64,000 bases of DNA from an uncultured Verrucomicrobiales bacterium (GTDB taxonomy: Bacteria; Verrucomicrobiota; Verrucomicrobiia; Verrucomicrobiales; Akkermansiaceae), in NCBI GenBank assembly GCA_937934595.1, contig CALGZA010000031.1, forward strand, positions 1-64,000, given 5' to 3'. The position numbers were made by a program, and so were the translations under genes. The notes beneath the pieces are model-generated. The model saw nothing but the letters and a program-made list of their open reading frames with translations. It was not told the DNA's origin and made no database searches. Shown here in pieces: positions 22,705 through 39,959 of the stretch; the stretch's first letter is position 1; each line of letters opens with the position of its first letter.

Positions 22705-23532
22705 ATGTTTCTTCAAAATACATTTAATACTATCGCCTTTTCACCGGCTGAGTGGATGGGACTACCTAAAAATTACTCTGCTCATGGAGATTCAGTGGGT
22801 CATATGATAGATGTTGTGACGTGGTTCATGATTGCACTATTTGTTGGTTGGACTTTATTCTTTTTATATTCGTTGTTTCGTTTTTGGCATAAGAAGAATC
22901 CTGAGGCGTCCTATTATGGTGTTAAGAGTCATCTTTCTACGCATTTGGAGGTGGGAGTTATTATTGTTGAGGCGGTATTATTACTGGGTTTTGCTTTACC
23001 TTTATGGAGTAAGAGGACCGATACTTTTGAGCAGGTGCTAAAGGAGAATCCTGTTCGTGTAAGGGCTATAGGTTTTCAGTTTAACTGGAAGTTTCACTAT
23101 GCGGGAGAAGATGGGAAGTTTGGTTATATTGACCGATCATTAGTGTCTGCACCTGGGGATCCTTGTATTGTGCCTGAAGATCCGAATGGGTGGGATGATT
23201 TTGTGACTGAGAAATTAAGGATACCTGTGGGTAAGCCAGTGATTCTTCAGGTGACGTCCACTGATGTGATACATAACTTCTCGATAATACCTATGCGTAT
23301 TCAGTCTGATGCTTTTCCTGATAAGGATATACCGATGTGGTTTACACCGCTGGAGGAGATGGAGACATCTGTGGTCTGTGGTCAGCTCTGCGGTTTAGGA
23401 CATGCTAATATGGTGTCTACATTGGTTGTGGAGTCAGAGAAAAGCTTTAATGAGTTTAGTAAGCAAAGAAGTGATGAGTCTAAGGCGGAGTCAAAGAAGC
23501 TGCATGGAGAAAAGGTAGCTGTGGCTGAGTGA
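22705..23532 (+). CDS. coxB: Cytochrome c oxidase subunit II with CuA site
   Basis: The 275-residue product has two N-terminal membrane helices and a periplasmic cupredoxin domain. The CuA ligands are visible: the His of DVIHNFSI and CGQLCGLGHANM (CxxxCxxxHxxM). The aromatic path residues are in FQFNWKFHY. There is no fused cytochrome c domain, so electrons must come from a separate cytochrome, possibly those encoded upstream. The gene sits last, after coxA, coxC and coxD, whereas coxB commonly precedes coxA. Confidence 0.94.
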   Translation: MFLQNTFNTIAFSPAEWMGLPKNYSAHGDSVGHMIDVVTWFMIALFVGWTLFFLYSLFRFWHKKNPEASYYGVKSHLSTHLEVGVIIVEAVLLLGFALPLWSKRTDTFEQVLKENPVRVRAIGFQFNWKFHYAGEDGKFGYIDRSLVSAPGDPCIVPEDPNGWDDFVTEKLRIPVGKPVILQVTSTDVIHNFSIIPMRIQSDAFPDKDIPMWFTPLEEMETSVVCGQLCGLGHANMVSTLVVESEKSFNEFSKQRSDESKAESKKLHGEKVAVAE

Positions 23533-25297: not shown

Positions 25298-26035
25298 CTA
25301 CTTTTCAGATAGTTCTTTTATTTTGACGAAGCAGGCGTTGGATCCAGAGGCAATGATTTTGCCTTCTTTATCGATGAGGTTGTATTCTGGTACAAATTTG
25401 GTTTTTTTGAATTGGCGTAGTTTTGAATTTTCTACTTTTTCTGGAAGAATGTGGTACCATGGGAGCTTGGCTTTAGCAGCCCAATTTTCTGCTGCATCTT
25501 TGCTTCTGTCTAGTGAGACTTGGAGCATTACTGTGTTGGAACTGTCTGCCAAGAGTTTGTTGTATTTGGCCACTAACTGTGGAGCACCGCTACGACAAGG
25601 TCCTCACCATGAAGCTGAAAAATAGAGCAGGTAATACTCTGGGATGAATTGGAATTCAGCTTTTTTAAGTTTGCTGCCTTTAAGTTGAGTGAGATTTTTA
25701 TAAATGTTTTTAGCAATGGGTTGTTCTTCTAGAGTATCCCCAATGTTTGCCTTAGCTTTTTCTTTTTCCTCGGCTTTCTTTTTTTCTTCCTCTTCTTTGG
25801 CTTTAGTGGCGATCCAGTCTTTGTCTGCTTGAGAGAGCATGTCTATTTTAAAGGTTGTTTTACGTCCATTGCTGCGGGCGATGGTGACTTTTTTGCTGTC
25901 TGCATCGTAATTCTGGTATGTACCTCTGAATGTTTTACTTTTGTCGCTATTGCTCCACATACGGGCACATAGTTTTGTGGATAGCAGGCTGGCAACACAA
26001 AGTGAGGTGAATAATGTTTTTCTTAATAGGTTCAT
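25298..26035 (-). CDS. SHD1 plus thioredoxin-like probable selenoprotein (UxxC)
   Basis: Read through the in-frame TGA at 25604-25606, the gene encodes 245 residues: a signal peptide (about 1-24), an SHD1-like domain (MWSNSDKSKTFRGTYQNYD ... LSQADKDWI), a Lys/Glu-rich helix and a thioredoxin fold. The TGA falls exactly at the first active-site cysteine: FSASW-(TGA)-GPCRSGAPQL, giving Sec144 and Cys147. After the TGA the frame continues as good thioredoxin-like sequence with the cis-Pro loop KFVPEYNLIDKEGK. The gene at 39393-39959 has the same TGA position. I therefore read it as selenocysteine, not as two separate genes or a pseudogene. It would be a periplasmic redox protein. Confidence 0.78.
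25570..25582 (-). promoter_or_regulatory. SECIS-like hairpin downstream of the TGA codon
   Basis: The mRNA has CCAC-AGUUA-GUGG, a 4-bp stem with a 5-base loop. The loop begins 26 bases after the TGA. A further GG/CC pairing is possible across a 4-base bulge. The second TGA-containing gene has the same loop at the same distance. Bacterial SECIS elements lie at this kind of distance and have a GU in the loop. The shared Gln-Leu-Val codons could also explain part of the match. Confidence 0.45.
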
Positions 26036-38279: not shown

Positions 38280-39305
38280 TTATTGCCAGTCTAGGACGAT
38301 TTTGCCTGATTGACCTGATAGCATGGTTTGGAATCCTTGGTTGAAGTCTGTGTAGTGCATTTTGTGTGTGATGACGGCGCTGGTGTCCATACCTGCACGG
38401 ATCATGGATGTCATTTTATACCAGGTTTCGTACATTTCTCTGCCGTAGATTCCTTTGAGGACAAGGCCTTTGAAGATGACTTTGTCCCAGTCGATGGCTA
38501 CGTTGTCTGGGAAGATGCCTAGGAGTGAGACTTTGGCTCCGTTTGATGTGTGCTGGAGGATGTCATTTAGTCCGCTTGGGTGTCCTGACATTTCGAGTGC
38601 AACGTCAAATCCTTCGTTCATTTTGAGTTCTTTTTTGACGTTAGCGAGAGATTCTTTGGCGACGTTTACGGTGCGGGTGGCTCCTAGTTTTTCTGCTAGT
38701 TTGAGTCTGTATGGGTTAACGTCTGTAATGACGATGTGACGAGCTCCGGCGAATTTAGCGACGGCTGCTGCCATGCATCCGATGGGGCCAGCTCCTGTTA
38801 TGAGGACGTCTTCTGCTACTAGATCCCATGAGAGTGCGGTGTGAACGGCGTTTCCTAGTGGGTCGAAGGTGGATATGATGTCTTCTGGGATGGAGGGGTC
38901 TACTTTGTAGGTGTTAGCGGCTGGGATGGATAGGTATTCTGCGAATGCGCCTGTTCTGTTGACTCCGACTCCTTTGGTGTTTGGGCAGAGGTGGCGTCTG
39001 CCTGCGAGGCAGTTTCTGCAGTGTCCGCAGACGATGTGACCTTCTCCTGATACTAGTTCGCCGACTTGAAAGTCTTTCACTCCGGTGCCAACGGCGGCTA
39101 TTTCTCCACAGAATTCATGGCCAATTGTCATGGGGACTGGTATGGTTTTTTGAGCCCATTTATCCCATTTGTAGATGTGGATGTCTGTTCCGCAGATGGA
39201 TGTTTTTTTGATTTTGATCATGACGTCCATGGGCCCCATTTCTGGTTCTGGGACGTCTTCTAGCCAGAGGCCTTCTTCTGCTCTAGATTTTACAAGCGCT
39301 TTCAT
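38280..39305 (-). CDS. tdh: L-threonine 3-dehydrogenase
   Basis: The enzyme oxidises threonine to 2-amino-3-ketobutyrate with NAD. The 341-residue product has the catalytic zinc region [18 protein letters not shown] and GHEFCGEI, the structural zinc cysteines [15 protein letters not shown], and the NAD fold [10 protein letters not shown]. The IYKWDKWAQ stretch is specific to Tdh among medium-chain dehydrogenases. The partner gene kbl is not next to it. Confidence 0.93.
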
Positions 39306-39335
39306 TTTGGTGGTTATGTGTAGGAATAAAAAAAT

Positions 39336-39360
39336 AGAAGCGACGTATTTTGTCGCTTCT
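39336..39360 (-). terminator. Intrinsic terminator after the second probable selenoprotein gene
   Basis: A perfect 9-bp stem (AGAAGCGAC / GTCGCTTCT) with a 7-base loop. On the minus strand it is followed by ATTTTTTTATT. It lies 33 bases beyond the stop codon at 39393 and ends the transcript before tdh. Confidence 0.85.
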
Positions 39361-39392
39361 ATTAAGGGTAGTGATCTTGGTGGTATTGTAAA

Positions 39393-39959
39393 TTATTTCT
39401 TCGTTAGATCTTCGAATTTTTTGATTAGGCTATTTGGTTCTCCACGCATCATTTCTTTACCTTCTTTGTCAATGAGTATGTAGGTGGGTACAAATTGGGT
39501 TTTGATGTCCTTGATGAATGTTTTGGCGATGTCTGACTTCATTAGCGTGGGCCATGGTAATGTTTCTTTTTTTGCCCATGCTGTTGCTTCGGTGACTGTG
39601 TTATCGAAGCTGACTTGAATAAGTTCTAGGTTATCTAGTTTAGTAAATTCTTTGTTATATTTTACCACTAACTGTGATATTGATTGACGGCAGGGTGGTC
39701 ACCAGCTTGCTGTGAAGTAGAGTATGAAGTAGTCTGGATTTCCTTTGATTTCGGTTTCGCTGTATTTTGTCCCGTCGAATTTTTTGATGACTGGAGCGAT
39801 GCTTTTGATTACTTTTGATTTGGCGTTTTGCTCTTTTTCTGTTGTTGATGTTTCATCAACAGCGGCCTGGACTATTTTTTGAGGAGTCTCAGTTTTGTCT
39901 TGTGCGGTTACTGACATCGTGAGTGATGCTGTAATGAGCGCGAGTATTTTATATTTCAT
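39393..39959 (-). CDS. Thioredoxin-like probable selenoprotein (UxxC)
   Basis: Read through the in-frame TGA at 39699-39701, the gene encodes 188 residues: a signal peptide (MKYKILALITASLTMSVTA), a Lys/Thr-rich linker and a thioredoxin-like domain. The TGA takes the place of the first active-site cysteine, FTASW-(TGA)-PPCRQSISQL, giving Sec87 and Cys90. The frame continues for 101 more residues with the cis-Pro loop QFVPTYILIDKEGK. It is a paralogue of the C-terminal half of the gene at 25298-26035 and lacks the SHD1 domain. Normal stop TAA and a terminator follow, so it is not a decayed gene. Selenocysteine is inferred. Confidence 0.78.
39663..39679 (-). promoter_or_regulatory. SECIS-like hairpin downstream of the TGA codon
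   Basis: The mRNA has UAUCAC-AGUUA-GUGGUA, a 6-bp stem (one U-G pair) with the loop starting 26 bases after the TGA. Loop sequence and distance equal those in the gene at 25298-26035, while the stem bases partly differ and still pair. Confidence 0.45.

Follow-up and report, generated by a model that had tools for sequence, protein, structure and literature searches.

The 64-kb window analysed here, by which we mean the whole stretch of DNA under study, carries two paralogous thioredoxin-like genes, TRX1 and TRX2, each with an in-frame TGA codon. The features considered, including one in a DsbD gene elsewhere in the same genome, are as follows:

39393..39959, minus strand: TRX1, predicted thioredoxin-like selenoprotein gene, 188 aa (signal peptide, low-confidence linker and thioredoxin fold, residues 48-188)
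39699..39701, minus strand: TGA of TRX1, predicted Sec87 of the U-P-P-C motif (from translation and aligned codon)
39663..39679, minus strand: upper hairpin of a predicted bacterial SECIS in TRX1, UAUCAC-AGUUA-GUGGUA, six pairs, 19 nt 3' of the TGA
39333..39363, minus strand: T-tailed hairpin 3' of TRX1, resembling an intrinsic terminator
25298..26035, minus strand: TRX2, predicted paralogous thioredoxin-like selenoprotein gene, 245 aa, U-G-P-C, with an extra N-terminal module (RMWSNSDKSKTFRGTY...)
25604..25606, minus strand: in-frame TGA of TRX2, predicted Sec144
25568..25584, minus strand: predicted SECIS upper hairpin of TRX2, core CCAC-AGUUA-GUGG, 4 pairs, positioned relative to the TGA as in TRX1
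L170:1165-1167 (genome G000, contig C37), minus strand: TGA replacing the first Cys of the C-terminal CxxC of DsbD

The frame FTASW-TGA-PPCRQSISQL reported in the first-pass annotation proved to be real: TRX1 runs from Met to TAA over 188 residues with a single in-frame TGA, at codon 87, and its protein reads MKYKILALITASLTMSVTAQ...YFTASW-U-PPCRQSISQLVV...LTKK (FTASW-U-PPCRQSISQL around the TGA). The corresponding region of TRX2 is FSASW-U-GPCRSGAPQL, also given as FSASW-U-GPCRSGAPQLVA. Conserved coding sequence flanks the UGA of TRX1 on both sides, as is required of a bacterial selenoprotein gene. When TRX1 was compared with three orthologues, the part following the TGA gave dN values of 0.24-0.29 versus dS values of 1.25-2.41; purifying selection acts on the sequence 3' of the TGA. 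Of 38 long genes in the window, 20 terminate with TAA, 15 with TAG and 3 with TGA. Each of the last 3 has a further stop 2-9 codons beyond, so outside the two Sec genes UGA serves as a normal stop in the window.

No recurrent neighbor of the Sec-thioredoxin genes could be identified except among closely related assemblies, and no partner or substrate was suggested. The alcohol dehydrogenase gene next to TRX1 is shared with one orthologue only. In a comparison of window 38280-39959 with L019, its product is 92% identical to that of genome G004, whereas the adjacent Sec-thioredoxins are only 55% identical, which suggests that the selenoprotein evolves much faster than its neighbor. A gene for cytochrome oxidase subunit II (window 22705-23532) lies near TRX2 on the opposite strand, with no link between the two shown. 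Scans of the 64-kb window found no Rfam match at gathering level and no tRNA (ARAGORN).

A candidate SECIS element follows the UGA in both genes. In a gapless alignment anchored at the TGA, columns 23-28 form pairs with columns 34-39 and enclose a loop AGUUR; across 58 distinct TGA-containing sequences 90.5% of the cells pair, and all six pairs show compensatory (two-sided) changes. None of 500 shuffles reached the observed pairing and covariation values, and a shift of register abolished the signal. The hairpin is absent from 21 Cys-containing homologs, in which 46.8% of the cells were paired and no pair had changed on both sides. According to the accessible text of PMC13188914, bacterial SECIS elements have a loop of 3-9 nt, a stem of 4-16 bp, a G in the first two loop positions and a spacing of 16-37 nt; the TRX1 hairpin fits these constraints, with a 5-nt loop (AGUUA, G second and U third), a 6-bp stem and 25 nt between UGA and loop. 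A covariance model gave E values below 1e-10 for TRX1 and TRX2 and nothing below 0.009 in six SelA-less genomes, with strong matches confined to Sec-utilizing genomes; in the source genome only the two window genes had low E values, the model being too family-specific for SelD or DsbD. We also scanned 84,980 species for the exact pattern TGA-N4-C-N-TGY-N12-CCACAGTTRGTGG. All 44 occurrences fell in thioredoxin-like U-x-x-C frames, W precedes U in all but one of them, and the hosts were Verrucomicrobia with the exception of one Planctomycetota bin. The signature was also found in a bin labelled Akkermansia muciniphila (L134, WGIN-U-GPC) and reads EW-U-GAC in the Planctomycetota bin (L130), both hinting at transfer or a wider spread.

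To decode such a codon the organism needs the Sec machinery, and the first-pass annotation had proposed looking for sel genes. All of them are there: the source genome (3.15 Mb in 123 contigs, completeness 95.9%) contains SelA (510 bits against a cut-off of 268), SelB (301 against 242), SelD (G000:C6:15481-16407) and a tRNA-Sec that exceeds the Rfam cut-off and is also called by ARAGORN (anticodon TCA). The selD gene contains an in-frame TGA of its own, as it does in most Sec-utilizing relatives.

The occurrence of TGA was then compared with that of SelA by searching 98 related genomes with TRX1 and extracting the aligned codon, all counts being among the matches listed. TGA was found at the Sec codon in 40 of the 98 genomes (58 distinct homologous sequences), comprising 38 of 46 genomes with SelA and 2 of 52 without it. 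The two exceptions, G008 and G063 (83% complete), both have a SelD with TGA, and G063 also has a tRNA-Sec. Cys homologs (21) have TGC or TGT at this position, and so did all of those examined from the other SelA-less genomes. The count of TGA versus TGC had been suggested beforehand, with TGA in genomes devoid of sel genes as the outcome that would speak against selenocysteine; as the only such cases are two incomplete genomes with other Sec genes, the selenocysteine reading withstood this comparison. It should be noted that eight SelA-containing genomes had no TGA-bearing copy among the matches listed, and that tRNA-Sec was undetected in some SelA-containing genomes. In G066 and G073, which lack SelA, tRNA-Sec matches lay barely above the cut-off and are possibly false.

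The two TGA codons of the window had been described as independent and therefore very unlikely to be errors. That they are not errors agrees with the 58 homologs, spread over 40 of the 98 genomes, that share the codon, and the presence of TGA in both TRX1 and TRX2 is far beyond chance; their independence could not be upheld. On a tree of 79 domains only 3 changes between Sec and Cys were needed, versus 18.7 when the labels were shuffled; the two TGA codons belong to paralogs, cluster on this tree and thus go back to common inheritance. In some genomes the TGA-bearing gene is present as a tandem array of two or three copies (L042, L022, L027 and L028), which suggests repeated duplication of the Sec gene. 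It had also been claimed that TRX2 has an SHD1 domain which TRX1 lacks, the selenocysteine-bearing half thus being shared between two architectures. SHD1 (PF03983) gave no Pfam match to TRX2 at E values up to 10, so the gathering score was not reached; one Cys homolog scored E=0.0032, below the Pfam cut-off (17.7 versus 23.7 bits). The part of the claim that holds is that the Sec domain is combined with several kinds of N-terminus: a short linker (TRX1 type), a module starting at about R-x-W-[TS]-x-x-D-G (TRX2 type) and longer N-terminal stretches. Since Cys homologs possess a similar module, it is not tied to Sec.

On the basis of these results, we consider it almost certain that TRX1 is a genuine selenoprotein in which UGA is decoded as selenocysteine. 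A sequencing or assembly error, or a decaying pseudogene, could be imagined in a genome split into 123 contigs, and standard annotation routinely truncates selenoprotein genes; however, the same codon is TGA in 40 of 98 genomes (among the matches listed) and in cultured strains, selection acts beyond it and the hairpin covaries. This explanation was rejected on the conservation of TGA across independent assemblies and is hardly conceivable. In favor of a reassignment or leaky reading of UGA, with Trp or Cys inserted by a near-cognate tRNA, homologs have Cys at the Sec position, so a Cys-inserting suppressor would also yield a working protein. On the other hand, TGA is a normal stop in neighboring genes, its presence tracks SelA, and the covarying hairpin is missing from Cys homologs. 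Code reassignment was rejected on these grounds as highly improbable.

Regarding the protein itself, TRX1 is predicted to be an exported oxidoreductase of tryparedoxin/ResA-like type. Its N-terminus resembles a signal peptide, and orthologs L020 and L021 have lipobox-like starts as judged by eye. In the AlphaFold model, which shows a thioredoxin fold, residues 51-188 have block pLDDT values of 91-98; confidence is low at the N-terminus. The closest solved chains were a nematode thioredoxin (4fyu, Z 14.9), tryparedoxins (Z 12.5-13.7), StoA (13.1) and ResA (about 12). As in thioredoxin-fold oxidoreductases, the motif is W-[U/C]-x-x-C, and positions 87, 90 and P158 (the cis-Pro position) are conserved. 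In Pfam, AhpC-TSA (4.6e-13, 49.6 bits) ranked narrowly above Thioredoxin_8 (6.6e-13, 49.2 bits); the latter (PF13905) is well above its gathering threshold of 27 bits, yet AhpC-TSA scores the same. TRX1 did not reach the curated NCBIfam cut-offs for ResA/DsbE and, with W-U-P-P-C, lacks the TxxC/TxxU motif of peroxiredoxins.

A candidate partner was found in the same genome. The only DsbD_TM match belongs to a DsbD of 744 residues containing DsbD_N, DsbD_TM and, at the C-terminus, a thioredoxin domain, the last of which reads VDFTADN-U-LTCKANENS. A SECIS-like hairpin (GAGAAC-AGUGU-GUUCUC) follows its UGA with a spacing close to that in TRX1. DsbD with TGA was found in 17 genomes (the source and 16 relatives) among the matches listed, all of them containing SelA except the incomplete G008, and in those sequences that were read the TGA lies in the same CxxC. 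Proteins of the DsbD type take electrons from cytoplasmic thioredoxin and hand them on to exported reductases of thioredoxin fold. Because the family feeds such reductases, this DsbD is the likeliest electron donor for TRX1; the pairing is drawn from co-occurrence and known DsbD-family biochemistry, and on balance DsbD probably supplies the electrons.

Two alternatives concern function rather than the identity of the residue. TRX1 may be a selenoprotein that acts as a peroxiredoxin-like peroxidase, since AhpC-TSA is its top Pfam match, though by a narrow margin, and Sec enzymes often reduce peroxides. However, its motif is UxxC and not the TxxU of the Sec peroxiredoxins in the accessible text of PMC13188914, and the closest structures are tryparedoxin, StoA and ResA. 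We therefore regard a peroxidase as improbable, and thiol-disulfide reductase is the likely activity predicted from motif and modelled fold. A second alternative is that electrons come from another source, such as another thiol carrier of membrane or lipoprotein type. In many SelA-containing relatives with Sec-thioredoxins a DsbD match is present but lacks the TGA, and G001, G003, G004 and G009 yielded no DsbD match passing an E value of 1e-30, which favors such a source; the presence in the source genome of a single DsbD_TM match, with a UxxC terminal domain, makes it rather unlikely here.

Our leading candidate mechanism is an electron relay of two selenoproteins into the periplasm. The hairpin 19 nt past the UGA would recruit SelB with Sec-tRNA(Sec), hairpin and machinery both being present, and Sec would be inserted at the UGA of TRX1. 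Outside the cytoplasm, Sec87 could attack an oxidized substrate and Cys90 resolve the selenenylsulfide, making TRX1 a fast thiol-disulfide reductase, as fold, motif and conservation suggest. Its electrons would most likely come from the single detected DsbD, itself with UGA at the C-terminal CxxC. In its fullest form, a selenium-to-selenium relay across the inner membrane, running from Sec-DsbD to a radiated family of exported tryparedoxin-like Sec thioredoxins in a genome in which no Cys copy of this thioredoxin was detected, the model is tentative, and we would put it at somewhat less than an even chance.

The general kind, a UxxC selenoprotein of thioredoxin fold, is already known, while the lineage-specific family and the Sec-carrying DsbD appear not to have been described before. 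No earlier description of the TRX1 family was found in the main texts searched, and it may be listed in supplementary tables of earlier surveys. A search combining DsbD, selenoprotein and selenocysteine returned only one 2026 review that looked relevant, and a paper mentioning selenocysteine together with Rubritalea bears a title on another subject. This large, multicopy family occurs almost exclusively in Verrucomicrobia, a phylum that the 2026 survey of prokaryotic selenoproteins (PMC13188914) does not mention in its main text; nor do the terms PF13905, tryparedoxin and nucleoredoxin appear there. Standard annotation would end its genes at the UGA. As Rubritalea marina, R. profundi, Roseibacillus persicicus, R. 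ishigakijimensis and Persicirhabdus sediminis are cultured carriers, the selenoprotein prediction is directly testable, and a Sec-containing DsbD raises the question of why selenium should be used on both sides of periplasmic electron transfer.

Compared with known systems, the source DsbD shares the DsbD_N, DsbD_TM and thioredoxin domains of DsbD/TsoB proteins, and among NCBIfam models it matches TsoB best, a rhodanese/DsbD fusion-like selenoprotein; unlike these, its scores of 147 for TsoB and 112 for DsbD fall short of the respective cut-offs, 805 and 330, and no rhodanese domain was found. The UxxC selenoproteins in the accessible text of PMC13188914 (thioredoxin, PF00085; Prx-like thiol:disulfide oxidoreductase, PF00578; redoxin, PF08534; and thiol-disulfide isomerase-like, cd02966) have in common with TRX1 the thioredoxin fold, Sec as the first residue of UxxC, a closely spaced downstream bSECIS and Cys homologs, whereas most of the tested TRX1-family members score best with Thioredoxin_8 and resemble tryparedoxin. 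With ResA, StoA and DsbE (CcmG), TRX1 shares a signal peptide, the fold (Z about 12-13) and a plausible supply of the DsbD/CcdA type, but it stays far below the NCBIfam cut-offs (36 versus 170 bits for ResA and 25.4 versus 123 for DsbE) and has no adjacent cytochrome-c maturation gene. Tryparedoxin (PDB 3s9f, 1fg4 and others; E about 1e-25) is the best-matching solved family besides the one nematode thioredoxin. TRX1 differs from it in having Sec in place of the first Cys, in its predicted export and in being bacterial. TRX1 shares the W-x-P-P-C motif of tryparedoxin.
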